Shown here piece after piece: positions 5,947 through 64,000 of a stretch of 64,000 bases of DNA (its first letter is position 1; each line of letters opens with the position of its first letter). The stretch spans positions 186,001-250,000 of the forward strand of contig NZ_CP036259.1 in NCBI RefSeq assembly GCF_007641255.1, read 5' to 3'. The notes under the pieces were generated by a model. The model had not been told where the DNA came from, did no database searches, and was given only the letters and a program-made list of their open reading frames with translations. Source of the stretch: Sporomusa termitida (lineage in GTDB: Bacteria; Bacillota; Negativicutes; Sporomusales; Sporomusaceae). A program made the position numbers and the translations under genes.

Positions 5947-5960
5947 TTAATTAAGGACAT

Positions 5961-6016
5961 AGAGGGCCGGGAGCTCCTTCACTAACTTAGCGTAGAGAGG
6001 GGGCTTTTTTGTTTTG
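5961..6016 (+). promoter_or_regulatory. Leader element copy A: GRGCC/GAGCTCC attenuator
   Basis: AGAGGGCC, a 2-nt gap and GAGCTCC start at 5961. AGCTCCTTC (5972-5980) can pair with GAGGGGGCT just before TTTTTT, a 9-bp intrinsic terminator with two G-T pairs. GGGC (5964-5967) can instead pair with GCTC (5973-5976), which would block the terminator stem. The same architecture recurs in three places at 56.5-57.1 kb. It lies about 150 nt upstream of the TonB receptor start, so it should act as a transcription attenuator. Confidence 0.6.
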
Positions 6017-6164
6017 TAAAAAAATGGCTATGATAAATGAGTTTGCTGGTCCAGGGTCACTGATGCCGGCTAAACTAAAGCGGCAGCGTGAATTGTTTAA
6101 AGCCGGAACGGTCGTGTAACCGAAGCATGATAATTAAAAGGGTAGACCATACAGGAGGTATATT

Positions 6165-8288
6165 ATGAAAAGAAAGATGGTAGTTCTTGCGGCAGCCATC
6201 ATGATGGGGATTTGCGGACCGGTGTCGCCGGCTTCTGCAGAAGAAACAACGATTGAACTGCAGGATTTATATGTGAATCCGGATTACGTGGAGATTGAGC
6301 GTTTAAGAGATACTAAACAAATTATTGTCATCAAAAAGGAAGAGATCCGGGAAAAAGGCTATAAGGGGGTCTCCGATGTTTTAAAAGATATCCCGAGCAT
6401 CTCCGTAGGGGCAACGGGTTTGGGCGACATTGATATTCGCGGGCAGGGATCGGACCAGTCGGTAAGAAATATCCAGGTTTTGCTGGATGGAGCGCCGATC
6501 ACAACCTTTGTCAGTCATCCGTTAAGCACAAATTATGACGTTGTTCCGATTGAGCAGATTGAAAAAATTGAAATCATTCTCGGCGGCGGTTCGGTTCTTT
6601 ACGGCTCGGGCGCTGCCGGCGGAATTATCAATATCACGACGAATCTGCGCAGTATGAATAAACAGAACAAGACAATTTCGTCAGAATGGAATACAGATGG
6701 CTATCGCCTCAATTTCAATTACGGTGAGAAAATCAATGATAAACTGACGACAGAAATCGGCTATTTCAAGCAGGACAGGGATTTATATTTTAAAGATACG
6801 TATAAGGACAGCGAGTATTTTTCCGCCGGCGTTCAGTATGACGCCGGCGAGGGTCAGCGAATAACGTTTCGGATGAGCCATCTGGCGGAAGAAGGTCAGT
6901 ATATTGCCAATATCCAGCCCTACAAAGTGGCGCAGGCGGGAAGAGGCTATGTGCCTGATTATGAAACCTATACCATTGGTTTGGATGCGGACGGACACAA
7001 AATAACGGCAACAAGGAGGCCCTATTTATTTGCCGACAGGTCAATGGATTCATACAACCTTGGCTATCAAAAGAATTTAAGCAGAACGTGGAAATTCAGC
7101 AGCGATCTTTTTTACAATACCGGCGATTTCATGAACAGCAAGTATGAAGATAAAAGAATGGATCATGAAACCAAAGGGGCAAGACTTAAATTTGACCATG
7201 CCTATAGCGAAAAAGGCAACCTGCTGTTTGGGCTGGATATTTACGAACAAACGGCAGAGATTGGCTATAACGACTATAAGCTTGTCAGTTCGGCCCAGAA
7301 GACTTATCGGGCAGTTCCTTTATCTTTTAATTATAATAAAAAAACGAATGCAGCTTATCTGTTACATAATGCAACCAGGGGAAAATACACGTTCACGCAG
7401 GGGCTGCGGCGAGAGAAAATAGACTGGAATTTTGATAAAGTTGGCAATAACATTGACGGGGCAGGAACCTCCGAGCGTTGGAATACGGCTAAAGAGCTGT
7501 CGCTGGCTTACCATTACAATGATACGGGCCGGGTTTATGCCCGGTATGAAAGAGGCTATACCACGCCGGACGGAATCCAGATTACGGACGAAGTAAGGGT
7601 TAATGGCAGCAAAAAATACGTTGGCACCGCGGCCAAAGATGAAATTTTTGATCTCTATGAAATTGGCTTGCGGGATAAGCTTGGCATATCCACTGTTAAT
7701 CTGACTCTGTTCCATTCCAATACGGACAACCAAATGAATCGTCTATACCTTTTTGATGCCAACGGGTCGCTGACGATGCAGACGCTTAATATGCTGCAAA
7801 CCAAGCGTAAAGGCCTGGAACTTTCCCTGCGCCAAAGCTTTGGCAAGCTGGCTGTGCAGGAAGGCTATGCTTATTTGCATGGACAAAGCGATTACACCAG
7901 CTTCGGCCGCAATTTCCTGGAAGAAAATAACGGGAGTATTATTGACTGGACTAAAAGTGGACTTAAAAAGGTTCCCCGGCATAAAGGCATATTGAAAGCC
8001 GATTATGCGTTTGACGATAAGTTGGCGGTAGGGCTTAAATATACCTATTTCGGGAAATACAACAATTTTCTTAAGGATGCCGACAAAGCGGACGGCGGAG
8101 TTATGCAGGCCCATTCGCTGGTTGATCTGGATATGAAATATAAGGTTAGCGAAGATACGGAAGTATATGGCGGCGTAACAAATCTTACCAACCGCAGGTA
8201 CTATGAATATGCGGGTGATTCTTTTGGCACGATTGTTCCAGGCTCTGAGCGTACTTATTATCTCGGCCTGAAATATGCTTTTAATTAG
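6165..8288 (+). CDS. TonB-dependent outer-membrane receptor
   Basis: 707 aa. Signal peptide about 1-26 (cleavage after SPASA), then a plug domain to about residue 165 ('VSDVLKDIPSISV', 'VLLDGAPITT', 'LGGGSVLYGSGAAGGIINI'), then a 22-strand barrel rich in aromatic residues ending in 'YYLGLKYAFN'. Such receptors import iron chelates, haem or cobalamin using TonB energy. The Fur-box promoter and leader copy A point to iron or haem. A tonB gene follows. The start has AGGAGG 7 nt upstream. The ligand cannot be told from sequence. Confidence 0.93.
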   Translation: MKRKMVVLAAAIMMGICGPVSPASAEETTIELQDLYVNPDYVEIERLRDTKQIIVIKKEEIREKGYKGVSDVLKDIPSISVGATGLGDIDIRGQGSDQSVRNIQVLLDGAPITTFVSHPLSTNYDVVPIEQIEKIEIILGGGSVLYGSGAAGGIINITTNLRSMNKQNKTISSEWNTDGYRLNFNYGEKINDKLTTEIGYFKQDRDLYFKDTYKDSEYFSAGVQYDAGEGQRITFRMSHLAEEGQYIANIQPYKVAQAGRGYVPDYETYTIGLDADGHKITATRRPYLFADRSMDSYNLGYQKNLSRTWKFSSDLFYNTGDFMNSKYEDKRMDHETKGARLKFDHAYSEKGNLLFGLDIYEQTAEIGYNDYKLVSSAQKTYRAVPLSFNYNKKTNAAYLLHNATRGKYTFTQGLRREKIDWNFDKVGNNIDGAGTSERWNTAKELSLAYHYNDTGRVYARYERGYTTPDGIQITDEVRVNGSKKYVGTAAKDEIFDLYEIGLRDKLGISTVNLTLFHSNTDNQMNRLYLFDANGSLTMQTLNMLQTKRKGLELSLRQSFGKLAVQEGYAYLHGQSDYTSFGRNFLEENNGSIIDWTKSGLKKVPRHKGILKADYAFDDKLAVGLKYTYFGKYNNFLKDADKADGGVMQAHSLVDLDMKYKVSEDTEVYGGVTNLTNRRYYEYAGDSFGTIVPGSERTYYLGLKYAFN

Positions 8289-14798: not shown

Positions 14799-14940
14799 CG
14801 CAGTGTGAACCTAGTCTTTTTAGCCACTGGCAAATGGGAATTATTCCAATGATTAGATGATGGGAGCCGTATGAGTTGAGAGGCTCAAGTACGGTTCTGA
14901 GAGAGCCTGGGGGTGGAACTCCTCCGGGCTACTTACCCCC
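14799..14940 (+). other. Group II intron 3' end, domains V-VI
   Basis: Directly after the maturase relic, GAGCCGTATGA (14864) and ACGGTTCTGA (14891) form the arms of a domain V-like hairpin, the most conserved intron element. A GC-rich domain VI-like hairpin (~14901-14933) ends at 'ctacttacccc'. With the RT relic this marks an intron that has lost its 5' half. Confidence 0.75.
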
Positions 14941-53433: not shown

Positions 53434-55440
53434 ATGGAGGTTGTACGCTCGGTTTGTCCTTATGATTGTCCTGATGCCTGTGGTCTCCTTGTATTAGTAA
53501 AGGCGGGGAAAGTGGTCAAAGTCCAGGGCGATCCGGATCACACTTTTACCAGGGGCACGCTGTGCCCGAAAATGGCCCATTATGAGCGAACCGTCCACTC
53601 GCCGCAGCGGCTCACAACCCCGTTGCGGCGGCGGGGTGCCAAGGGCAGCGGCAGTTTTGCGCCGGTTTCCTGGGACGAGGCAATTGCCAGCATAACGACA
53701 AAATGGCAGGCGATTATTGAACAGCACGGGCCGGAAGCTATTCTGCCCTATTCTTATGCCGGCACGATGGGGCTTGTACAGCGCAATGCCGGCCACCCGT
53801 TTTTTTACAGTCTGGGGGCTTCACAGCTTGAACGCACAATCTGTTCGCCGGCCAAGGGCTGTGGCTGGAGCGCGGTTATGGGGCAGACAATGGCGCTGCA
53901 TACCCGGGAAATTCATGCCAGCGACCTTATTATTCTCTGGGGCCTTCATGCGCTGGCAACAAACCTTCATATTATGCATGATATACGTATAGCCCGCAAA
54001 CAGGGAGCCCGGGTATGGCTGATTGACACATATGAGAACCCCACTGCCAGGGCCGCCGACTGGCTGATTGTTGTCCGGCCGGGGACAGACGGCGCCCTGG
54101 CGCTGGGAATGCTGCATGTCATCGCCCGGGAAAACCTGGCAGATCAGGATTTTGTCAATCGGTATGTACAAGGGTATGAGGAACTGAAAGCCACTGTCCT
54201 GCCTGAGTATACCCCGGCCGCAGTCAGCCGGATCACCGGCCTTGCCGCTGCGGACATTGAGGAGCTGGCCAGGCTGTATGCCTCGGCCCGGGCCCCGTAC
54301 ATTCAGTTAGGCAGTGGTCTGTCCCGTTATAGCAACGGGGCCATGACCGTGCGGGCTATTGTTTGCCTGCCGGCTGTTGTCGGTGCCTGGGCTAAACCCG
54401 GGGGCGGACTATTCGCCGGTACTTCCACCGGTGCTGCTTTTGACACGCAGGGCGTGACCCGCGAGGATTTTATAAAAAAACCGGCCCGGATCATTAATAT
54501 GAATCAACTGGGCCAGGTGTTAAATGAGACAGGCAAGCCCCCGGTCATGAGCCTGTATGTGTATCACTCCAATCCGGCGGCCATAGCGCCGGATCAGAAT
54601 CAGGTGCTGGCGGGACTGGCCCGGGAGGATTTATTTACGGTTGTGCATGAGCGCTTTTTAACAGATACGGCTAACTATGCCGATATTGTTTTGCCGGCAA
54701 CGACCTCGCTGGAGCATAGTGATATTTACCGGTCCTACGGACATTACGGTGTACAGCGGGCCCGGGCGGTGATACCGGCGGTCGGGCAGGCCAAATCCAA
54801 CTGGGAGGTATTCTGCCTGCTGGCAGCAGCCATGGGATTGCAGCAGTCTTTCTTTGCCCAGTCGGCCGATGATCTGATTGACAGTATGCTGGCCCGGCCG
54901 ACGGCGTGGCTGGCCGGTACGCCGCTGGCAGCGCTGCAGGCCGGATTTCCGGTTGAATTGCCGCTGCCGGCCGGGTATAAGACTGAGTTTAAAACCCCAT
55001 CAGGCAAGATCGAGATTTTAAATACAAGCCAGGCTGAGCCATTGCCGAGGTATACGAAACCCCATGGCGATAAGGCCGGCTTCTGGCTGATCAACGCCCC
55101 TGATCCGCGATTGTTGAACTCTTCCTTTAATGAGCGGGAGGATCTCACCAGGAATGGCAAGATGCGGCTGAAGATGAATCCGGCCGATGCCGGCGGCCAG
55201 GGCCTCCGGGACGGGCAGTTGGTTGTGGCCTATAATGAACGGGGGGAGGTAGCCTTTACCCTGGAAGTCTCATCCGCTGTACCGGCCGGGGTTGTTGTCG
55301 GCGAAGGAGTTTGGTGGCTGCAGCATGTTCCCGGCAGCCGTTCAGTCAATGCCCTGACCTCGCAGCGCCTTACTGACCAGGGGCGGGGCAGTACTTTTTA
55401 TGATGTCAAAGTAAACGTCCGGGCCGCGGCCGTGTCTTAG
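53434..55440 (+). CDS. Molybdopterin-dependent oxidoreductase
   Basis: 668 aa, DMSO reductase superfamily. The N-terminal [4Fe-4S] domain uses CPYDCPDAC and a downstream cysteine in TLCPKM. 'ICSPAKGCGWSAVMG' falls where the Mo/W ligand is expected, and the C-terminal ~100 residues are the molydopterin dinucleotide-binding domain ('LLNSSFNEREDL'). No twin-arginine signal, so cytoplasmic. No Fe-S or membrane partner genes are adjacent. Substrate unknown; formate dehydrogenase-like and thiosulfate/polysulfide-like relatives are possible. GGAGG precedes ATG 53434. Confidence 0.88.
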   Translation: MEVVRSVCPYDCPDACGLLVLVKAGKVVKVQGDPDHTFTRGTLCPKMAHYERTVHSPQRLTTPLRRRGAKGSGSFAPVSWDEAIASITTKWQAIIEQHGPEAILPYSYAGTMGLVQRNAGHPFFYSLGASQLERTICSPAKGCGWSAVMGQTMALHTREIHASDLIILWGLHALATNLHIMHDIRIARKQGARVWLIDTYENPTARAADWLIVVRPGTDGALALGMLHVIARENLADQDFVNRYVQGYEELKATVLPEYTPAAVSRITGLAAADIEELARLYASARAPYIQLGSGLSRYSNGAMTVRAIVCLPAVVGAWAKPGGGLFAGTSTGAAFDTQGVTREDFIKKPARIINMNQLGQVLNETGKPPVMSLYVYHSNPAAIAPDQNQVLAGLAREDLFTVVHERFLTDTANYADIVLPATTSLEHSDIYRSYGHYGVQRARAVIPAVGQAKSNWEVFCLLAAAMGLQQSFFAQSADDLIDSMLARPTAWLAGTPLAALQAGFPVELPLPAGYKTEFKTPSGKIEILNTSQAEPLPRYTKPHGDKAGFWLINAPDPRLLNSSFNEREDLTRNGKMRLKMNPADAGGQGLRDGQLVVAYNERGEVAFTLEVSSAVPAGVVVGEGVWWLQHVPGSRSVNALTSQRLTDQGRGSTFYDVKVNVRAAAVS

Positions 55441-56399
55441 TGTCCGGACTCGGGATAAAACAGATTGGACAGGTAATCGATGGCTTCATCCGCCCGGCTG
55501 GCCGGGTTGACGGCGAACAACTGGTAAGGCAGCTGGTATACCTGTTTTTGCTGCACCGCACTGAGTGTTTGCCAGGAGGGGTGTACCAGCAGCTCATTGC
55601 GGATTTTATCGCTGACTTTGGCTTCATAGCTGTGGCTGATCAGGAGAATCAGGTCCGGCCTGGACCGGGCCGCGAATTCCAGGTTCAGGGGCAGATACTG
55701 CAGGTCCTCGCTGCTCATGGCTGCGGCCACATTGACGGCATTGAGCCGGCGGATGAGATCACCGATAAAGCTGTTGGGCAAGGCCATATAGAATTTTTCC
55801 GGCGAGCCCCAGATAATCAGGACCCGGGGTGAAGGCCTGTTTTTACTTTTGGCCTGGGCTTGCTGTAATCTGCTGTCTAACCGTTCAATAACCCGGCTGG
55901 CCTGGCTGGGGTGATCCGTCAGTTCGCCGTAAAAGCGTAAAGTCTGACTGATATGCTGGAAATTGTCCAGCCGCTGCAGATAGACCGGAATGCCGGCTTG
56001 TTTCAAAGTCGAGAGAATCGGCTGGCGCAGATGAATGTCTGTTGCCAATACGAGGTCGGGTTTTAAAGCGATAATCTGCTCAATATCCGGGCAGGGTGTC
56101 TCACCCACCACCGGGACATCCTTGATTTTTTCCATTAAGTCCGGTGGCAGGGCTGCCGTATTAGGGCGGCCGACCAATTGTCCGCCGGCAGCGTAATATA
56201 AATCAACATTAGAAGGGTTGAGCGCAACCAGCCGCAACGACCTCCCTTTTTTGATTGTCTGTACCAGGTTGCATTTGGGGCACTGGATTTCCACATATTT
56301 GACCTGGCCTTTGAAAAGCAGCCTGTTGCACTTGGGACAACGGCACTCGTTCATAGCTGCCGTATTTAACCTGCCACTGCCGTTAACTGGGGGATGCAT
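55437..56399 (-). CDS. Com-like zinc ribbon fused to a signal-less periplasmic-binding domain
   Basis: 320 aa from ATG 56399 (AAGGAGG 11 nt upstream; TTG 56408 possible). Residues 18-45 form a Com-type zinc ribbon: C21xxC24, 15 residues, C40xxC43, with 'CNRLLFKG' and 'VEIQC'. Residues ~55-318 are a class III binding-protein domain closely similar to the protein at 57982 ('NFQHISQTLRFYGELT', 'VLIIWGSPEKFYMA', 'LPYQLFAVNPA'). There is no signal peptide, lipobox or membrane helix, so it should be cytoplasmic. A ligand-sensing regulator is inferred. The gene has a Fur-box promoter and leader copy D. Its stop overlaps that of the convergent molybdoenzyme gene. Confidence 0.85.
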   Translation of the reverse strand: MHPPVNGSGRLNTAAMNECRCPKCNRLLFKGQVKYVEIQCPKCNLVQTIKKGRSLRLVALNPSNVDLYYAAGGQLVGRPNTAALPPDLMEKIKDVPVVGETPCPDIEQIIALKPDLVLATDIHLRQPILSTLKQAGIPVYLQRLDNFQHISQTLRFYGELTDHPSQASRVIERLDSRLQQAQAKSKNRPSPRVLIIWGSPEKFYMALPNSFIGDLIRRLNAVNVAAAMSSEDLQYLPLNLEFAARSRPDLILLISHSYEAKVSDKIRNELLVHPSWQTLSAVQQKQVYQLPYQLFAVNPASRADEAIDYLSNLFYPESGH

Positions 56400-56429
56400 A
56401 TAATACAATACCTCCTTTACTTTACAGTA

Positions 56430-56568
56430 ATAAAGAAAACACGGCTGGCGCCGGGCCTTTGGCGAAAGCGTAAGCCAAGGTTGCCCCTTATCCGGGGAAA
56501 GTTATACTTTCTTTCAGGATAAAAAAATTCCGCGTGAAATAACATTCACCCGGAGCTCAAGGCCCTCT
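56430..56568 (-). promoter_or_regulatory. Leader copy D: GRGCC/GAGCTCC attenuator plus downstream module
   Basis: On the minus strand AGAGGGCC-TT-GAGCTCC begins at 56568. TCCGGGTGAA pairs with TTCACGCGGA (one mismatch), then a T7 run: an intrinsic terminator. GGGC and GCTC can pair as a competing hairpin. Further on, a second module contains the palindrome GAAAGT-ATA-ACTTTC, 'ccccggataaggg', and a GGCT...AGCC stem followed by GTGTTTTCTTT. The module recurs at 57131-57220. Confidence 0.6.
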
Positions 56569-56570
56569 TA

Positions 56571-56618
56571 ATAATCATTCTCAATGTTATTATAAAAAAG
56601 CCGGAACATTCTTGTCAA
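56571..56618 (-). promoter_or_regulatory. Promoter with Fur box (Com-SBP fusion gene)
   Basis: On the minus strand TTGACA (56618-56613), an 18-bp spacer and TATAAT (56594-56589) are a near-perfect sigma-70 promoter. The sequence just after the -10, 'attgagaatgattatt' (56586-56571), is a good Fur box covering the start site. Confidence 0.85.
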
Positions 56619-56705: not shown

Positions 56706-56734
56706 TTGACATTGATAATGGTTATCAATATACT
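56706..56734 (+). promoter_or_regulatory. Promoter with Fur box (com-tonB-haem operon)
   Basis: TTGACA (56706-56711), a 17-bp spacer and TATACT (56729-56734). The spacer is ATTGATAA-TGGT-TATCAAT, a strong palindromic Fur site. It is divergent from the fusion-gene promoter, 88 bp away. Confidence 0.88.
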
Positions 56735-56743
56735 ATAACTATA

Positions 56744-56800
56744 AGAGAGCCACTGAGAGCTCCGTGACGGGTAATATGGCACGGGGCTTTATTGTTAGGC
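56744..56800 (+). promoter_or_regulatory. Leader copy B: GRGCC/GAGCTCC attenuator
   Basis: AGAGAGCC-ACTGA-GAGCTCC begins at 56744, just after the predicted start site. AGCTCCGTG pairs with CACGGGGCT (9 bp, one G-T), followed by TTATTGTT. GAGC (56747-56750) can instead pair with GCTC (56759-56762). It sits about 60 nt before the com start. Confidence 0.6.
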
Positions 56801-56860
56801 ACTATTTCTTTGTGACTGCAGGAATCCTGATTCCCCTGATTAATTATTGGAGTGATGCAC

Positions 56861-57049
56861 ATGGAAGTCAAACCCAAAAATCTGCGGCAGACAAAATCAA
56901 AATTGCCGGAAGTGCGTTGTTTTCAGTGCAATAAGTTATTGTTCCTTGGCATTGCTGAGAATGTCGAGATCAAGTGCTCCCGTTGCGGGACTGTTCAGTG
57001 TATCGGCAGTTGCAGGCAAGAGGCGAAAGTACATATCAGCAGCTGGTAA
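56861..57049 (+). CDS. Com-like zinc-ribbon protein
   Basis: 62 aa from ATG 56861 (TTGGAG 9 nt upstream; ATG 56855 and GTG 56852 are alternatives). Cysteines C20xxC23, 15 residues, C39xxC42, with 'CNKLLF' and 'VEIKC', match the zinc ribbon of phage Mu Com and of the fusion protein encoded on the other strand; C47 and C51 are extra. Mu Com binds RNA to switch on mom translation, so RNA binding is likely. It lies between two copies of the leader element, which are its obvious candidate targets. The basic N-terminus (KPKNLRQTKSK) fits nucleic-acid binding. Confidence 0.82.
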   Translation: MEVKPKNLRQTKSKLPEVRCFQCNKLLFLGIAENVEIKCSRCGTVQCIGSCRQEAKVHISSW

Positions 57050-57080: not shown

Positions 57081-57130
57081 CCTCAGAGAGCCTAGAGCTC
57101 CGCGGCCGTACAGTGCCCGGAGCTTTATTT
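57081..57130 (+). promoter_or_regulatory. Leader copy C: GRGCC/GAGCTCC attenuator inside the operon
   Basis: AGAGAGCC-TA-GAGCTCC begins at 57085. AGCTCCG pairs with CGGAGCT (perfect 7 bp), followed by TTATTTTATC. GAGC can pair with GCTC instead. No Fur box or good promoter lies directly upstream, so it should act on transcripts reading through from com, gating expression of tonB and the haem genes. Confidence 0.6.
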
Positions 57131-57254
57131 TATCCTGCAGGAAAGTATAACTTTCCCCGGATAAGGGCACCAGCGGCTTCCGCCTTCGTTAAGACTTGGC
57201 GCAAGCCGTATTTCTTTATTTTTCCTAAGATGTTCATTAAAGTGAGGTGATAGT
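57131..57254 (+). promoter_or_regulatory. Second leader module shared with copy D
   Basis: Positions 57141-57167 are identical over 27 nt to the minus strand at 56511-56485. The segment holds the palindrome GAAAGT-ATA-ACTTTC, then a CGGCTT...AAGCCG stem followed by TATTTCTTTATTTTT, a second terminator-like structure. GTGAGGTGA then precedes the tonB start. Confidence 0.55.
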
Positions 57255-57938
57255 GTGACCTATCAGCCATGCTGGTACAAAGCAGTCAGTCTTTCCTGTG
57301 CTGTCCATCTGGTTTTCATTTTGCTGCTGGTAATGGTTATGGGGCAGTTAGACCGGCCGTTAGCATTGCCTGAACGGTACCTTACTGTTGAACTTACTGA
57401 AATAGCCGGCTGTACCTATGCTGACAGTGTACCGGCACCGGCGGCTGTTTCCCCGGTGAGTCCTCAGCTTGATCAGCCACAGCCAAGTGCGGCCCGCCCG
57501 GCGGCCGACCCCGCCGCTGCGCCGGCGCCGGCTGCCGGGGCAGAGATAGCTGCGGTAACCGCAACCGCCGGGACTGCCGGCAGCGGCGAAGGGCCGGCCC
57601 CTCAGACTGCTGCCGCTGTTGCGGGACCGGCGGCTCCGGCAGCCAGGACGGCGGGCGGCAGGGAGCTTGACAGCATTATTAACGGCTTCCTGTCGCAAAT
57701 TGAAAAATATAAAGAATACCCGTATATTGCCAGGCGCCGGGGACAGGAAGGGACCGTTACGGTGGCAGTTCGCCTGAGTGCGGCCGGTGAACTGGCCGGA
57801 GCGCAGGTGGTGCGTTCCTCCGGGATCGCGGCTCTGGACGAGGCGGCTTTGACACTGGTACGTAAGGTTTGCCCTTTTGCGCATAACGCCGGCCGCAGCA
57901 TTGCGATGAACATCCCGATCGCTTATCAGATTGAGTAA
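57255..57938 (+). CDS. tonB: Energy transducer TonB (second copy)
   Basis: 227 aa, GTG start. Membrane anchor ~11-33, an Ala/Pro-rich periplasmic linker (~60-140), and a C-terminal TonB domain ('KYKEYPYIARRRGQEGTVTVAVRL' in part, 'LVRKVCPFAH'). It energises outer-membrane haem or siderophore receptors. It is the second gene of the com operon, followed 43 bp later by the binding protein. Confidence 0.9.
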   Translation: MTYQPCWYKAVSLSCAVHLVFILLLVMVMGQLDRPLALPERYLTVELTEIAGCTYADSVPAPAAVSPVSPQLDQPQPSAARPAADPAAAPAPAAGAEIAAVTATAGTAGSGEGPAPQTAAAVAGPAAPAARTAGGRELDSIINGFLSQIEKYKEYPYIARRRGQEGTVTVAVRLSAAGELAGAQVVRSSGIAALDEAALTLVRKVCPFAHNAGRSIAMNIPIAYQIE

Positions 57939-57981: not shown

Positions 57982-58959
57982 ATGAGTCAACACAGCAATA
58001 GAATAACGTTCGGCATGATTGGTTTATTATTGGTGGTCAGCATCCTGTTTTTATTAAAAGGCCAGGCACAGCCTGCGGATAATCAGGCACCGGCCCGCTA
58101 CCAGGTAACCGACAGTGCCGGCCGACAAGTGGAAATACCCCGCCGGCCCCAGCGGGTGATTGTTTTAAATGCATCAAACCTGGAACTGTTTTATGCTGTC
58201 GGCGGGACTGTGGTTGGACGTCCCACGACTGAGGCGCTGCCTGAGGCTGTTAAGGCTGCTGTTCGGCAGGTGCCGGCAATTGGTATTACTCCCAATCCCA
58301 ATATTGAACAAATTGTGGCTCTCAGGCCGGATTTGATTCTGGGAGTAAATATGCCTTTTCATCACAACCTGATCCCGGTGCTGAATAAGGCCGGTATTCC
58401 CATCCTGCTGCAGGCCCTGGAAAATTATCAGCAGATTATCGATACATTGCATTTTTATGGTGAATTAACAGGTCAGCCGGAACAGGCTGCTGCTGTCATT
58501 GCCGGGATTGAAGCCCGTTATGAGACGGTTGTCAAGAATACTAAAAACCATCCGGCCCCTAAGGTTGTGATCGTGTGGGGGTCGCCGGAAAGTTTCCATA
58601 TGGCAACCGCCCGCAGTTTTACCGGTGATCTGGTTAAAAGGCTGGGCGCAGTCAATGTGGCCGATGCAGGGGACCATAGTGGCGGACAGATGGGCTATGT
58701 GCCGTTAAGTATGGAGTATGTGGCCAAGCAAAATCCGGATAAGATTTTTTTGATAACCCATAGCCCGGACGAAAAAACCAATGGTAAAATCCGGAACGAT
58801 CTGGTAAACCATCCTGCCTGGCGGGGGTTAAAGGCAGTAGCAACCAACCAGGTCCACTTGCTGCCCTATAACCTGTTTGCCGTAAATCCCGGTACTCAGG
58901 TGGGCGAGGCGCTGACCGTGCTGGCCGGTTTCTTATATCCGGAGGTGACTCAACCGTGA
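57982..58959 (+). CDS. Haem/iron ABC substrate-binding protein
   Basis: 325 aa. N-terminal membrane anchor (~9-28) without a lipobox, then a class III binding fold: 'RPQRVIVLNASNLELFYAVGG', 'RPDLILGVNMP', 'VVIVWGSPESFHMA', 'HLLPYNLFAVNPG'. The operon context (FecCD permease, ATPase, haem-degrading radical SAM enzyme) points to haem. It is the close paralogue of the Com-fused cytoplasmic protein at 55437. Confidence 0.9.
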   Translation: MSQHSNRITFGMIGLLLVVSILFLLKGQAQPADNQAPARYQVTDSAGRQVEIPRRPQRVIVLNASNLELFYAVGGTVVGRPTTEALPEAVKAAVRQVPAIGITPNPNIEQIVALRPDLILGVNMPFHHNLIPVLNKAGIPILLQALENYQQIIDTLHFYGELTGQPEQAAAVIAGIEARYETVVKNTKNHPAPKVVIVWGSPESFHMATARSFTGDLVKRLGAVNVADAGDHSGGQMGYVPLSMEYVAKQNPDKIFLITHSPDEKTNGKIRNDLVNHPAWRGLKAVATNQVHLLPYNLFAVNPGTQVGEALTVLAGFLYPEVTQP

Positions 58960-59960
58960 GGGAATTAACCACAGATCCCCGGGCCGGCCGGCGGACGGCT
59001 ATCAGTATTTCAGGCCTGGCAGCGTTGGTGGCGGCCCTGTTAATCGGGATCAGGGTGGGGGCTGTGCCTGTCAGTATGGGCGATATCTGGCATGTGTTCA
59101 GTGCCCCGGCCGGTAACGAGGCTTACCAGATTATTTATAACATCCGGGTGCCGCGGGTGCTTACCGGTGCCTTGACCGGGATCAACCTGGCGCTGGCCGG
59201 CTGTATCCTGCAGGGGGTATTGCGCAACCCGCTGGCTGATCCCGGCATTATCGGTGTATCGGCCGGAGCCGGTCTGGCCGCGATGGCGGTAATGATTTTA
59301 TGGCCCGGGTTGACGGCATTGGTGCCGGCCGTTGCTTTTGCCGGCGCGCTGATGGCTGCCGGTATCGTGTTTATGTTATCCTGGGACCGGGGCGTACAGC
59401 CATTGCGGCTGATCCTGGCCGGCGTGGCCCTGGCAGCATTTTTTGGCGGCGGCATGAGTGGGCTTATGGTTTTTCATTCTGACAAAGTACAGGGGGCCGT
59501 CAATTGGCTGGCCGGGGGTTTCCAGGGGCGAAGCTGGGATCATGTCAGCATGATCCTGCCTTACAGTTGTATCGGCATAGTGGGGGCGCTGCTGTCTTAC
59601 CGGTATCTGAATGCGCTGCAATTGGGGGACGATATCGCGAAAGGACTGGGCATTAAGGTGGAAACTGCGCGGTTTTCCCTGGTTGCGCTGGCGGCCCTGC
59701 TGGCGGCTTCGGCTGTTAGTGTGGCCGGTCTGCTGGGCTTCGTCGGGCTGATCATTCCTCATATAACCCGGATGCTGGTCGGCTCGGATTTTGAATACCT
59801 GCTGCCCTGTGCGGCGGTACTGGGGGCTACGCTGGTGGTAGCCGCCGATACGGTAGCCCGCACGGTATTCAGCCCGGTGGAAGTACCGGTGGGAATTTTT
59901 ATGGCGTTCCTGGGGGCTCCGTTTTTTATTTTTCTACTGCAAAGGGGGATGCGGCGATGA
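58956..59960 (+). CDS. FecCD-type ABC permease
   Basis: 334 aa, GTG start overlapping the previous stop by 4 bp. About 9-10 helices with 'IRVPRVLTGALTGINLALAGCILQGVLRNPLADPGIIGVSAGAG' (in part) and 'GLLGFVGLIIPHITRMLVG'. It forms the inner-membrane channel with the next gene's ATPase. Confidence 0.93.
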   Translation: MRELTTDPRAGRRTAISISGLAALVAALLIGIRVGAVPVSMGDIWHVFSAPAGNEAYQIIYNIRVPRVLTGALTGINLALAGCILQGVLRNPLADPGIIGVSAGAGLAAMAVMILWPGLTALVPAVAFAGALMAAGIVFMLSWDRGVQPLRLILAGVALAAFFGGGMSGLMVFHSDKVQGAVNWLAGGFQGRSWDHVSMILPYSCIGIVGALLSYRYLNALQLGDDIAKGLGIKVETARFSLVALAALLAASAVSVAGLLGFVGLIIPHITRMLVGSDFEYLLPCAAVLGATLVVAADTVARTVFSPVEVPVGIFMAFLGAPFFIFLLQRGMRR

Positions 59961-60763
59961 AACATACACTGGAAGCTCAGGCTGTCAAACTCGGTTATGG
60001 CGACAAAGTCATTGCTCCGTCTATCGATCTGGTGCTCAACAAACCGGAGATTATTGCTATTATTGGCCCGAACGGCTCCGGCAAATCGACGCTGTTAAAA
60101 GCATTGAGCCGGTTATTGACGCCCTTAGCGGGGTCCGTATTGCTGAACGGTAAGGATATTCACCGGCTGCCTCCCCGGGAGGTGGCCCAAGTTATGGCCA
60201 TTCTGCCCCAGTCGGTACAGGCGCCGGGGGATATGACTGTCTGTGATCTGGTCGCCTATGGGCGTTTGCCTTATAAAAAGATGTTTGAACAGCTGGCAGA
60301 TACGGATAAGGCTTGCATGGCGGCGGCGCTGGCTGCTACCGGCATGCAGACCATGCAGCAGCGCCGGCTCGACAGTCTGTCAGGCGGCGAACGGCAGCGG
60401 GCCTGGCTGGCTATGGCGCTGGCCCAGCAGCCGCGTTTGCTGCTGTTGGATGAGCCTACAACCTATCTGGATATTCATCACCAGCTCGAATTAATGAAAC
60501 TGATCCGTAACCTGCACCGGGACCGAGGGATTACTATTGTGATGGTACTGCATGATTTAAACCATGCCGCCCGGTTCAGTCAGCGCATTATTGCCGTTAA
60601 AGAAGGGATAATATTTGCCGACGGGCCGGTGCCGGCGGTCTTTACCGCTGAAAATCTGCAGGCGCTGTATGGGGTTGAAACCACGGTTATGGCGGTTGAG
60701 CAAGGAGGTAGCACGCATCTTGTCTGTTTGCCCCATGATACCTGCCTGGCCCCGGGAGCCTGA
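59957..60763 (+). CDS. FecE-type ABC transporter ATPase
   Basis: 268 aa. Walker A GPNGSGKST, signature LSGGERQR, Walker B LLLLDEPTTYLD and the His-switch 'VLHDLNHAARF'. It powers the haem/iron importer; as the only FecE-type ATPase in the window it could also serve the orphan permease at 45283. Overlaps the permease stop by 4 bp. Confidence 0.94.
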   Translation: MKHTLEAQAVKLGYGDKVIAPSIDLVLNKPEIIAIIGPNGSGKSTLLKALSRLLTPLAGSVLLNGKDIHRLPPREVAQVMAILPQSVQAPGDMTVCDLVAYGRLPYKKMFEQLADTDKACMAAALAATGMQTMQQRRLDSLSGGERQRAWLAMALAQQPRLLLLDEPTTYLDIHHQLELMKLIRNLHRDRGITIVMVLHDLNHAARFSQRIIAVKEGIIFADGPVPAVFTAENLQALYGVETTVMAVEQGGSTHLVCLPHDTCLAPGA

Positions 60764-61496: not shown

Positions 61497-62230
61497 GCGG
61501 CTGGCTGGCTGTGTACGGGCGGGAAATGCTGCTGATGCAGAAAAAAATCGGCAAACTGGGTTATGTTTTTTCCTCGGTGATGTTTCCGGTTATTTATTTA
61601 TTTGCTTTTGGTCTGGGGCTGGGCTCCCGGCTGGAGGTCAGCGGCGGCTATGTACCATTTCTGGCTACCGGGATTGCCAGCCTGACCGTGATGCTTAATG
61701 CCTTTCAGCAGACCTCCCTGTCTGTAAGTGCCGGGCGCCTGTATTTTCATACCTTTCAAACCGTGTTTTTAAGCCCTGTCCCGCCGCTGCAGGTTGTTGG
61801 CGGTATTGCCCTGGCCGGTATAACCCGCGGGTTAATCATGGGAGGCCTGGTGTATGCGGTTGCCTGGCTGGCATTCGGTGTGCCGCCGCTGTCCGGCATT
61901 GCCGTAACTGCCCTGCTGTTGTCGGCCTTCTGTTTTTCCGCGCTGGGTATTGTTCTCGGCTTGGCTATTGCCGATCCTGATGAAATATCACTTGTTAATA
62001 ATTTTCTGATCACGCCGATGATTTTCTTCTGCGGTTCCTTTTTTCCTGTTCAGAATTTACCGGTTGCTCTGCAGGCGGTTGTGTCGATATTGCCGTTAAG
62101 TATGGCTAACAGCCTGGTACGTCTGACCGCCTGGAACGGCCACGCTGCCGGCCAGGCCGCGGCCTTGGCGTTAATGGGGCTGGGCCTGCTGCTGTGGGGG
62201 GCCGGCAGCCTGAAAAAATACAGTGAATAA
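61493..62230 (+). CDS. ABC-2 type membrane permease
   Basis: 245 aa, six hydrophobic segments. 'GRLYFHTFQTVFLSPVPPLQVVGGIALAGITRG' (in part) and the C-terminal 'FFCGSFFPVQNLPVALQAVVSILPLS' (in part) match the NodJ/DrrB-type half-exporters. Partner of the preceding ATPase (4-bp overlap). Substrate unknown. Confidence 0.9.
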   Translation: MSGWLAVYGREMLLMQKKIGKLGYVFSSVMFPVIYLFAFGLGLGSRLEVSGGYVPFLATGIASLTVMLNAFQQTSLSVSAGRLYFHTFQTVFLSPVPPLQVVGGIALAGITRGLIMGGLVYAVAWLAFGVPPLSGIAVTALLLSAFCFSALGIVLGLAIADPDEISLVNNFLITPMIFFCGSFFPVQNLPVALQAVVSILPLSMANSLVRLTAWNGHAAGQAAALALMGLGLLLWGAGSLKKYSE

Positions 62231-62252
62231 TAATTTTTGCGGGGGGTTAAAA

Positions 62253-62771
62253 ATGAAGACATTGATTGCCTATTCCAGTTTGACCGGCAATACCCGGAAA
62301 GTGGCGGCAGCCATCCAGGCGGTGTTCGGCCCGGCGGCGGATTTGTATCCGGTTGAATCGGCACCGTCACCGGCAGAGTATGATTTTGTGGTTGTTGGTT
62401 TTTGGGTTGACAAAGGCACGGCCGATAAAAAGGCCCAGGATTTTTTAAAAACAATTGCGAACAAGCCTGTCGCCTTATTTGCCACGCTGGGGGCCTATCC
62501 TGATTCCGAGCATGCCGCTGACAGCCTGAAGAACGCGGCGGCATTTCTGGCCGGCAGCAACCGGCTGGCCGGCACCTTTATCTGCCAGGGGAAAATCGAT
62601 CCCCGGTTAATCGAGCAGTTCAAAAATATGCCGGCCAACCACCCCCATGCCCTTACGCCGGAGCGGCTGGCGCGTTATGAGGAAGCGGCCAAACATCCTG
62701 ACAGCGCGGACCTGCAGGCTGCCCAGGCGGTTTTTACAGATATAAAAAGGCAATGGATGAAAGCGAGGTGA
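62253..62771 (+). CDS. Flavodoxin family protein of the haem locus
   Basis: 172 aa from ATG 62253 (GGGGGG upstream). The FMN phosphate loop is 'SSLTGNTRKVA'; 'FVVVGFWVDKGTADKKAQDFL' (in part) and 'ALFATLGAYPDSEHA' match the flavodoxin-like proteins commonly paired with anaerobic haem-degrading or bilin-reducing enzymes. It probably delivers electrons to the radical SAM enzyme encoded next. Confidence 0.87.
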   Translation: MKTLIAYSSLTGNTRKVAAAIQAVFGPAADLYPVESAPSPAEYDFVVVGFWVDKGTADKKAQDFLKTIANKPVALFATLGAYPDSEHAADSLKNAAAFLAGSNRLAGTFICQGKIDPRLIEQFKNMPANHPHALTPERLARYEEAAKHPDSADLQAAQAVFTDIKRQWMKAR

Positions 62772-62778
62772 TGGATGC

Positions 62779-64000
62779 TTGCGGGAAACCAAATTAAAGC
62801 AGATTCTGGCGGCAATGGATGCGCAGCAGTACGCCCTGACGGTCGGGACGGCAACCGGTGAGGCCCTGGCGGCTGCGTTTGCCAAACGCCGGGTGGTCCA
62901 TGCCGGGGTCCGGGGGAAACCGCTGGGCCCGGGGGAATGGCAGACTGCCTGGCAGTCTTTGCTGCGGCAGGCAACAAAAGCTAAACAGCGGGCGGCCTAC
63001 ATCCATATTCCGTTTTGCCGGCACCGCTGCCTGTATTGCGGCTTTTTTCAAAACTATGCGGATGAAGACCGGGAAACCGCGTATATTGACAGCCTGATTA
63101 AAGAACTGCAGCTGAGCCGGGACTGCCGCTATCTGGCCAGCGGGCCGGTCAACGCGGTATTTATAGGCGGCGGCACCCCCAGTACACTGGCACCCCATAA
63201 TATTGCCAGACTGCTGGACGCTGTCCGCGCTTGCCTGCCGCTAGCCAATGATTATGAGTTAACCCTCGAAGGCAGGATTAATGATCTGGAACCGGCCCGG
63301 ATTGAAGCCTGGCTGGCGCATGGGGTAAACCGCGTTTCCATCGGGGTACAGTCCTTTGATACCGGGGTGCGGCGTTCGGTCGGCCGCCTGGATGACACGG
63401 CCACTATTTTGAAGCGGCTGGAACTGTTGTCCGGCTATAATCAGGCCACGGTAATTATTGATTTGATTTATGGCCTGCCCAACCAAACAAATGAAGTTTG
63501 GGCCAGTGATATCAATTTGCTCAAGACGGCGGCGATTGACGGCTTAGACCTGTATCAGCTGAATATTTACCAGGGCAGCGCCCTGCAGCAGGCCATCCAG
63601 GCCGGTAAACTGCCGCCGGCAGCAACCACGGCCGAACAAGCCGGCATGTTTGCCGCGGCCGGGGCAACCTTAACGGCTAATGCCTTTTCCCGGCTCAGTA
63701 TCTGCCACTGGGGAAAAACAAACCGGGAGCGCAGTATGTATAATACCCTTACCAAAGCCGGACGTCATGTAATCCCGTTTGGCGCCGGTGCCGGCGGCAA
63801 TATTGGCGGGGCAACCATGATGCTGAACCGTGACGTGGCCGCCTATATTAAGAGTATTGAACAAGGTCATAAACCGATTGCCGCCATGCTGCTGCTGCCA
63901 GCCGGCAGTGAGCTGCACAACGCTGTTGTCGGCCAGTTGGAGCGGGGGTATTTAAATCTTAAGGGGCTGGCAGTCCGCTACGGGCCCGAGGTTCTGGAAT
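62779..64000 (+). CDS. hutW: Radical SAM haem-utilisation protein, HutW/ChuW type (partial)
   Basis: Open from TTG 62779 (GAGGTG 8 nt upstream) to the window end, 407 codons with no stop, so the C-terminus is missing. The radical SAM cluster motif is CRHRCLYCGFF after 'AAYIHIPF'; 'VFIGGGTPSTL' and 'SIGVQSFDTGVRRSVGR' are HemN-like. The N-terminal extension and 'ICHWGKTNRERSMYNTLTKAG' (in part) are the features of HutW/ChuW, which open the haem ring anaerobically and release iron. HemN/HemW is less likely given the haem import operon. Confidence 0.87.
   Translation, partial: MRETKLKQILAAMDAQQYALTVGTATGEALAAAFAKRRVVHAGVRGKPLGPGEWQTAWQSLLRQATKAKQRAAYIHIPFCRHRCLYCGFFQNYADEDRETAYIDSLIKELQLSRDCRYLASGPVNAVFIGGGTPSTLAPHNIARLLDAVRACLPLANDYELTLEGRINDLEPARIEAWLAHGVNRVSIGVQSFDTGVRRSVGRLDDTATILKRLELLSGYNQATVIIDLIYGLPNQTNEVWASDINLLKTAAIDGLDLYQLNIYQGSALQQAIQAGKLPPAATTAEQAGMFAAAGATLTANAFSRLSICHWGKTNRERSMYNTLTKAGRHVIPFGAGAGGNIGGATMMLNRDVAAYIKSIEQGHKPIAAMLLLPAGSELHNAVVGQLERGYLNLKGLAVRYGPEVLE

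Follow-up and report, generated by a model that had tools for sequence, protein, structure and literature searches.

A cytoplasmic fusion of a Com zinc ribbon with an IsdE-like binding domain, and the associated leader RNAs, in a haem locus of Sporomusa termitida

A haem-uptake locus of Sporomusa termitida encodes a protein in which a Com zinc ribbon, a family known from phage Mu, is joined to a class III solute-binding-protein (SBP) domain, and the question is what such a protein does in the cytoplasm. The window analyzed is the whole stretch of 64,000 nucleotides at positions 186,001 to 250,000 of contig NZ_CP036259.1 (assembly GCF_007641255.1), and all coordinates refer to it. The fusion is probably a sensor that switches haem-uptake genes on or off via RNA.

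The fusion protein and its family

The initial annotation described a fusion gene whose product is a close paralogue of the binding protein encoded from 57982, has lost the signal sequence, and shares a CxxC-N15-CxxC ribbon with the neighboring 62-amino acid Com protein; each of these statements is borne out.

55437 to 56399, minus strand: Com-SBP fusion, 320 amino acids from the ATG at 56399 (open reading frame; Pfam PF10122 and PF01497)
56253 to 56351, minus strand: Com zinc ribbon within the fusion protein (residues 20-52 of P0001), CPKC-x15-CPKC
55449 to 56234, minus strand: class III binding-protein domain of IsdE-like type (residues 59-320 of P0001), with His259
56861 to 57049, plus strand: standalone Com zinc-ribbon protein of 62 amino acids (P0003; PF10122, 29.1 bits)
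57982 to 58959, plus strand: exported IsdE-like binding protein (P0002), paralogue of the fusion domain (Pfam, identity, hydropathy)

An alternative start, TTG at 56408, gives a fusion protein of 323 amino acids (P0001). In P0001, Peripla_BP_2 (PF01497) matches residues 61-295 with 118 bits and Zn_ribbon_Com (PF10122) matches residues 20-52 with 21.7 bits, narrowly missing its cut-off of 22.9; the same ribbon scores 25.2 bits in the whole-genome scan, above the cut-off, and the other fusions score 23-34 bits. The ribbon spacing is C-x2-C-x15-C-x2-C, and the four zinc-binding cysteines (two CxxC) are invariant in 17 of 17 aligned fusions. Identity to the binding protein at 57982 is 46% across 300 amino acids, and identity of the ribbon to the Com protein at 56861 is 43% over 44 amino acids (E 3e-11). 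The peak 19-residue hydropathy in the first 60 amino acids is 0.18 for the window fusion, and the 17 fusions tested span 0.12-1.20, while the exported paralogue reaches 2.42; by this measure the window fusion has no hydrophobic N-terminus or export signal.

A search for the combined architecture, as the initial annotation had suggested, found 20 fusions in 15 of the 380 genomes of the class, belonging to seven families. The same annotation would have been refuted by an artefact or an exported protein, and neither applies. The ribbon in the window lies barely below the Pfam cut-off, which could point to an artefact, but the source genome holds a second fusion 4.1 Mb away and this, with the 20 fusions in 15 genomes, rules out an assembly error. 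In six fusion pairs dN is 0.02-0.15 and dS is 0.25-1.4; the fusions are under purifying selection, and dN well below dS rules out a pseudogene. Export is ruled out by the missing hydrophobic N-terminus. An artefact, pseudogene or exported protein is therefore virtually out of the question, and the fusion of a Com ribbon with an IsdE-like domain is a genuine, conserved, cytoplasmic family. In a tree of the binding domains, computed without six binding proteins that lack the trimming motif, fusions of type A (including that of locus L039) and of type B fall in separate clades, which suggests two separate fusion events; a single origin with loss is not excluded.

Leader RNAs and their association with Com

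The initial annotation mentioned leaders A-D in passing, and four leaders are indeed present in the window. They are listed here with promoters and further genes.

56511 to 56569, minus strand: leader of the fusion gene, GAGGGCC-UU-GAGCUCC then a terminator-like hairpin (model R1, 47.8 bits)
56743 to 56803, plus strand: leader preceding the standalone Com gene, with a spacer of 5 (52.6 bits)
57084 to 57139, plus strand: leader between the Com and TonB genes of the operon (52.5 bits)
5960 to 6020, plus strand: leader upstream of the TonB-dependent receptor gene at 6165-8288 (54.1 bits)
56589 to 56618, minus strand: sigma-70-type promoter TTGACA-18-TATAAT, 12/12, upstream of the fusion-gene leader (consensus match only)
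56570 to 56591, minus strand: Fur-box-like palindrome over the fusion-gene promoter (by eye; member of repeat family D2)
56706 to 56734, plus strand: sigma-70-type promoter TTGACA-17-TATACT, 11/12, of the Com-TonB operon
57255 to 57938, plus strand: TonB-like protein (PF03544)
58956 to 59960, plus strand: FecCD-type permease (PF01032)
59957 to 60763, plus strand: ABC transporter ATPase (PF00005; FecE/haem ATPase-like)
62223 to 62771, plus strand: BilS-like flavodoxin (PF12641; NF045594 129.6 bits, below the cut-off of 155)
62779 to 64000, plus strand: radical SAM enzyme of the HutW/ChuW type, for anaerobic haem degradation (TIGR04107 452 bits, cut-off 400); the gene extends past the window end

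The promoter of the Com-TonB operon also overlaps a Fur-box-like palindrome seen by eye; this one and that at 56570-56591 were judged by resemblance to the Fur-box consensus. A 43-nucleotide inverted repeat was rejected as part of the system, being a dispersed repeat found in 18 places in the genome. A tblastn search of P0003 against phages gave no match.

The leader is about 60 nucleotides long and consists of GAGRGCC-N2-5-GAGCUCC followed by a terminator-like hairpin and a U-run. At a score of at least 25.8 bits there are 61 leaders in 43 loci, 59 of them upstream of genes for the fusion (19), a TonB-dependent receptor (12), a binding protein (11), Com (6), TonB (6) or ExbB (5); the other two are unlabeled as to downstream gene. 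All eight leaders of the source genome (5.3 Mb) precede haem-locus genes of these kinds. The strict pattern GAGNNCC(N)2-3GAGNNCC, which is the bipartite motif present in 868 of 999 sequences selected by SELEX with a Mu-like Com (PMC6483171), is met by 51 of the 61, and the GA is kept in 61 of 61. The leader consensus had been derived before the published motif was read; part of its invariance is by construction, because the seeds were gathered with a regular expression. Rfam 15 has no match above the gathering score at the leaders, and its only match in the window is a group II intron (14862-14937).

A strong leader is present in 21 of the 27 genomes with Com and in none of the 353 without; when only HutW-positive genomes are counted, the figures are 21 of 23 with Com and none of 87 without. 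Leaders thus track Com and not haem genes, and those 87 genomes led to rejection of the leader as a general mark of haem operons. Four Com-positive genomes (G310, G057, G079, G108) have neither HutW nor leader, and matches that are only weak (21-26 bits) occur in 15 genomes, all Com-negative. Fisher values on this co-occurrence ignore kinship among the genomes, and diverged leaders in Com-negative genomes could escape a model trained on Com-positive loci. The pattern GAGAGTC-N2-4-GAACTCC is found in seven of the 380 genomes, three of which (G091, G147, G148) have real leaders, with GAGU/ACUC in place of GAGC/GCUC; the matches in G077, G144, G316 and G321 were rejected because no terminator follows, and a reversed control pattern also matched in seven genomes.

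If the leader were a riboswitch, or answered another protein or a small RNA, then Com would be a mere passenger of the same gene clusters. Direct contact between Com and leader has not been shown and there is no Rfam match to settle the leader's identity, but the distribution follows Com rather than the haem operon, the leader carries the Com SELEX motif, and about 60 nucleotides of two alternative hairpins would leave scant room for a ligand pocket; this explanation is highly improbable. A second possibility is that standalone Com alone regulates, and that the fusion serves in the cytoplasm as a chaperone or buffer for haem or iron, its ribbon being a structural addition. Several genomes (G000, G010, G082-G085, G105) do have both kinds side by side. 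Against this, leaders persist in five genomes (G005, G090, G104, G304, G092) where the fusion is the sole Com detected with PF10122, the ribbon is strongly constrained (L046 and L050 differ by no amino acid there, with dS about 1), and 19 of the 20 fusions carry a leader of their own, the leader model finding none at L039. A chaperone role without regulation is very unlikely. That the ribbon binds leader RNAs in the cell is an inference without binding data, albeit one held with high confidence.

Alternative hairpins, antitermination and the ligand

The two half-sites can form a hairpin with a 4-bp stem and the loop C-N2-3-GA, and the second of them forms the terminator's 5' arm as well. In the half-site hairpin 240 of 240 cells are paired and two pairs are changed on both sides, which was equalled by none of 500 shuffles; further U-A versions come from two genomes that belong to another family. 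Since the terminator structure leaves the 5' half-site unpaired, it does not account for the half-site pairing. The terminator stem is 95.1% paired, with 23 cells changed on both sides versus 4.6 in shuffles, and at least five U fall within the next eight nucleotides after it in 54 of 60 leaders. These pair counts come from A3, an alignment fitted to the model, and from the earlier A1, because MAFFT on the short leader pieces placed gaps at the 5' end; A3 is biased towards the terminator structure and not towards the half-site hairpin. Folding z-scores are -1.65 to -5.34 in eight leaders, the window leader at 5960-6020 reaching only -1.65. The three leaders in the tested region were not picked up by a scan for consensus terminators, their loops being larger than the limit of eight that it allows. 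As judged from predicted structures and covariation, the half-site hairpin and the terminator are mutually exclusive.

Com and Com-SBP are proposed to be sequence-specific RNA-binding regulators of genes for haem uptake and anaerobic haem degradation. The leader would form the start of transcripts made from Fur-type promoters, and its default fold would be an intrinsic terminator. During leader synthesis the half-sites GAG-AG-CC and GAG-CU-CC may pair into the small hairpin, the loop of which would be gripped by the Com ribbon; because the terminator needs the second half-site for its 5' arm, it could not form while the hairpin is held in this way, and transcription would continue. The IsdE-like domain, moved into the cytoplasm, would serve as the sensor of an imported cofactor, likeliest haem or a haem product, making read-through via the fusion dependent on ligand, and the fusion would also control its own gene. 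Antitermination as the outcome is inferred, and is considered likely.

Alternatively, the effect of the ribbon may be post-transcriptional, like that of Mu Com on mom: the ribbon would open the ribosome-binding site or protect the RNA, and the hairpin and its U-run would not work as a terminator. Mu Com activates translation (PMC6483171), and the leader ends four nucleotides before the start codon in L038, L042 and L047. The distance is otherwise up to 280 nucleotides, however, and thus too varied to mask one ribosome-binding site; the U-run closes the element in nearly all cases, and it lies close to where the transcript begins, the separation from the -10 boxes upstream of it in the window being about 11 and 22 nucleotides. 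Post-transcriptional action is unlikely.

The ligand is less clear. In the AF2 model most blocks of the SBP part reach a pLDDT of about 90 or higher, and the best Foldseek matches are 5joq and IsdE 2q8p (TM 0.73 to the latter, by query length), the best fold hits being named Lmo2184 and IsdE. His259 is invariant in the 17 fusions aligned, at the position of the haem-ligand histidine of IsdE, and the domain is highly conserved among fusions. The methionine ligand of IsdE is not conserved in the fusion alignment, Pro105 being at that position, and the IsdE equivalog TIGR03659 scores 157.6 bits and does not meet its cut-off of 298.65. Haem, siderophore and cobalamin binders, to which the fold is common, are all among the sequence and fold matches. 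With the methionine missing, the domain may sense nothing and serve as a dimerization platform, or the ligand may be a siderophore or cobalamin; these options are doubtful rather than remote, since the top fold matches, the invariant His259 in a strongly conserved domain and the haem-degradation neighbor HutW speak against them. Haem or a haem-derived ligand is favored, without binding data, because of the IsdE-like fold, His259 and the neighboring HutW and BilS-like flavodoxin; that the ligand activates rather than blocks read-through is an inference to which we only lean. Of the initial annotation's proposal, which was sensing of internal haem or siderophore coupled to action on RNA leaders, the RNA half is thus supported, by leaders that carry the SELEX motif and track Com rather than haem genes; the ligand half is inference only. 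Taken whole, the reading of Com and Com-SBP as antiterminators of haem uptake and degradation, with the fusion ligand-responsive through its SBP, is somewhat favored, in the absence of any binding, haem or transcription experiment.

Comparison with known systems

No description of the Com and class III binding-domain architecture was found in the open-access literature, in agreement with the initial annotation, and nothing relevant there links Com to antitermination, haem or Negativicutes leaders. We know of no earlier case of a solute-binding-protein fold as the sensor of an RNA-binding regulator, and this would be the first if the proposal is true. Com, known as a phage oddity, would then control a regulon of cells through an RNA code that can be read, sequence alone would suffice to find such regulons, and a diderm Firmicute could check the actual arrival of the cofactor on top of Fur. 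The broadest form of the proposal could equally prove right or wrong: a new class of ligand-responsive RNA regulator, in which a cytoplasmic haem-type domain with a Com ribbon governs the whole haem regulon by antitermination through a shared leader, standalone Com is the sensor-free form in Com-only genomes, and Com-leader pairs extend beyond the class.

Operons for anaerobic haem degradation in Fusobacterium likewise cluster a HutW-type enzyme (HmuW), flavodoxin and haem uptake, and the part of that report available does not mention Com or a leader (PMC10404700). The Com of phage Mu and Mu-like phages (PF10122), activator of mom, belongs to the same zinc ribbon family, and the leaders carry its SELEX motif; the present Com, in contrast, is cellular, lies in haem loci, is partly fused to a sensor domain, and has a target that overlaps a terminator and not a ribosome-binding site. 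A 320-amino acid fusion in a haem locus does not meet the criteria of a Mu-type com/mom regulator, a small standalone phage protein. The haem-binding lipoproteins of the IsdE/HtsA type (TIGR03659) share the fold and the position of the histidine ligand, but the fusion has no signal or lipid anchor and no methionine ligand, and falls under the IsdE cut-off. The antiterminators LicT, SacY and BglG stabilize a small RAT hairpin that excludes a terminator. The logic proposed here is the same, but the RNA-binding fold and sensor are unrelated and the RNA sequence is another; a Pfam scan found no CAT RNA-binding or PRD domain in the fusion. Btr of Bacillus subtilis is a DNA-binding regulator of iron uptake with a cytoplasmic class III binding domain as its sensor, so such domains are already known in this role. 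Btr (NF049932) and the fusion are alike in this sensor and differ in the reader head, which in Btr is an AraC-type DNA-binding part, not found in the fusion by Pfam scan, and in the fusion is the putative RNA-binding ribbon.

The Com-SBP fusion and its relatives

The window's fusion joins a Com zinc ribbon (PF10122) to an IsdE-like binding-protein domain.

55437-56399, minus strand: fusion ORF with a Com zinc ribbon ahead of its class III binding-protein domain (Pfam)

The ribbon falls just below the Pfam cut-off in the window fusion (21.7 against 22.9) and above it when scored in the genome frame (25.2). The initial annotation had described the protein as a close paralogue of the exported binding protein at 57982 that has lost its signal sequence; both points are borne out, with 46% identity to the fusion's binding domain and no hydrophobic N-terminal stretch seen ahead of that domain. 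The top NCBIfam profile for the domain is IsdE (157.6 bits, far below the equivalog cut-off of 298.65); among solved structures, IsdE of S. aureus and Lmo2184 come nearest. An AlphaFold2 model (mean pLDDT 85.5; low confidence in the ribbon, 57-73, and in residues 1-19, <50) has as its top Foldseek matches 5joq (Lmo2184 of Listeria) and haem-bound IsdE (2q8p). His259 aligns with the His of IsdE, and the position of the IsdE Met is Pro105; in HtsA, related to IsdE, the ligands are Met79 and His229 (PMC4684392).

The Com plus binding-fold architecture, for which a database search had been proposed, recurs. PF10122 finds three places in the 5.3-Mb genome of Sporomusa termitida: the window Com, the window fusion, and a second fusion (361 aa) with flavodoxin and then HutW genes downstream. 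Matches occur in 27 of 380 Negativicutes genomes, and open frames of 317-408 aa hold 19 of the 40 matches listed. A twentieth fusion (locus L052), missed by PF10122, was added by reading loci, giving 20 fusions in 15 genomes and seven families, with Pelosinus fermentans JBW45, P. propionicus, Sporomusa ovata DSM 2662, and Anaerospora hongkongensis among the named relatives. There are two main types: one of ~315 aa, mostly beside a divergent standalone Com and including the window fusion, and one of ~361 aa with a linker. The four cysteines and His259 do not vary in the 17 aligned fusions (three near-identical ones were omitted), and dN is far lower than dS in six fusion pairs.

Neighbours of Com and Com-SBP genes include TonB/ExbB, an exported IsdE-like protein, FecCD permease, ABC ATPases, a BilS-like flavodoxin, the radical SAM enzyme HutW (in the window, 452 bits to TIGR04107), and TonB-dependent receptors, which match profiles of haem, cobalamin or siderophore receptors with every score under cut-off. 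These clusters look like haem uptake together with anaerobic haem degradation. Very long TonB-dependent-receptor-like frames (~1600 aa) are present at L034 (8591-13381) and L080 (own genome), the latter preceded by a leader of the kind described below. A fusion in genome G091 (L039, 7059-8054) has no leader and is not in a haem cluster.

Leader RNAs and their two structures

The sequence AGAGRGCC-N2-GAGCUCCG, with a hairpin ending in a U-run, lies upstream of 8/8 type-A fusions examined, and a regular expression places the element in most Com loci. Alignment of 44 leaders (A1) gave a model (R1), and the search with it returned 61 full-length leaders in 43 loci (25.8-68.2 bits). Downstream are fusions (19), receptors (12), binding proteins (11), Com (6), TonB (6), ExbB (5), and unlabelled genes (2). 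The window has four.

5960, plus strand: leader (R1)
56511, minus strand: leader of the fusion gene (R1)
56743, plus strand: leader of the Com gene (R1)
57084, plus strand: leader (R1)

The whole genome has eight, all ahead of fusion, receptor, binding protein, Com, TonB or ExbB-type genes. The window's two top-scoring promoter-like sites are immediately upstream of the fusion leader (~22 nt to the first half-site) and the Com leader (~11 nt). A near-identical 43-nt repeat lies just downstream of two leaders in opposite orientation (56485-56527 and 57125-57167); it is dispersed, with 18 places in the genome (<=2 mismatches). The window also has an Rfam group II intron match (14862-14937, 53.7 bits).

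The leader consensus was fixed before Com's binding target was looked up. Nowacka et al. 2019 (PMC6483171) selected RNAs with a Mu-like Com, and the motif NGAGNNCC(N)2-3GAGNNCCNN was present in 868/999 sequences; the recognised element is CC(N)2-3GAG, placed in the loop of a hairpin with a C-G closing pair, GA is its most important part, and a target within a duplex is bound weakly. GAGNNCC(N)2-3GAGNNCC is strictly fitted by 51/61 leaders, and GA is kept in all 61. The earlier proposal that the protein senses internal haem or siderophore and acts on RNA leaders thus gains support in its RNA half; the ligand half remains inference.

When the 5' part was folded alone, a 4-bp half-site hairpin formed in 14/14 leaders tested (-1.4 to -3.7 kcal/mol); whole leaders formed the terminator (-17 to -42 kcal/mol). 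The two predicted structures exclude each other. In the model-fitted alignment A3, 240/240 cells of the half-site hairpin are paired, and two pairs change on both sides, G-C to A-U (L044, L085) and C-G to U-A (L041), a level matched by 0/500 shuffles. Because the first half-site is unpaired in the terminator, these changes support the half-site hairpin itself; the terminator stem covaries as well. The U-A version also occurs in leaders of another family (G147 and G148), which were spotted by eye; their terminator loops (L065 near 10241, L063 near 5936) are much longer than in other leaders, which is probably why R1 missed them.

Co-occurrence with Com and HutW

Strong leaders (R1, 33 bits or more) are found in 21/380 genomes, all within the 27 Com-positive ones; 15 more genomes, all Com-negative, have only weak hits. 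HutW is present in 110 of the 380, 23 with Com and 87 without. A strong leader accompanies 21 of these 23, the other two having a variant leader, and the R1 search found none in the 87; Fisher values were not corrected for descent. The four Com-positive genomes without HutW (G310, G057, G079, G108) have no leader. From this split and these four genomes, the leader tracks Com, not haem genes as such. The sole Com found by PF10122 is a fusion in five leader-bearing genomes (G005, G090, G104, G304, G092) and a standalone Com in G003, which has two leaders; therefore each form alone goes with the leader, with "sole" meaning the only one found, as PF10122 can miss a Com (the L052 fusion).

In MAGs of Deltaproteobacteria and Nitrospirae, several small Com-like genes adjoin TonB or receptor genes (L123, L131, L134, L138). 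GAGNNCC(N)2-3GAGNNCC occurs nine times in 27 such loci (two loci without a match were scanned twice), versus two for the reversed pattern. Com-leader regulation may extend beyond the class, a lead and not a result. Around 6000-6400 in the four loci named, GAG..CC hairpin-like repeats lie between the Com-like and TonB/receptor genes. At L133 and L136, GAGGCTTACGAAGCCCG repeats and then terminator-like stems are downstream of Com-like genes without apparent haem link, perhaps of phage.

Proposed control and known systems

Promoter firing would be set by Fur-type control, on the basis of boxes read by eye, and most transcripts would end at the leader except when a Com ribbon is bound to the half-site hairpin as it emerges. 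The IsdE-like domain could make read-through dependent on haem that reached the cytoplasm. Given that the leader folds by default into the terminator, and that in five genomes the fusion appears to be the only form relied on, at least one ligand state of the fusion should be antiterminating; we lean towards the haem-bound fusion as the active state (substrate induction).

No published account of Com in haem loci, of the Com-SBP fusion or of the leaders was found in the open-access literature, in agreement with the initial view that a Com ribbon joined to a class III domain is undescribed. To our knowledge, the combination of parts and the leader RNA family are outside any described system. The single parts do have known relatives: Com for the ribbon and IsdE for the binding domain. 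Btr is a DNA-binding counterpart of Com-SBP, and RAT-type antitermination is a known relative of the proposed mode of control.
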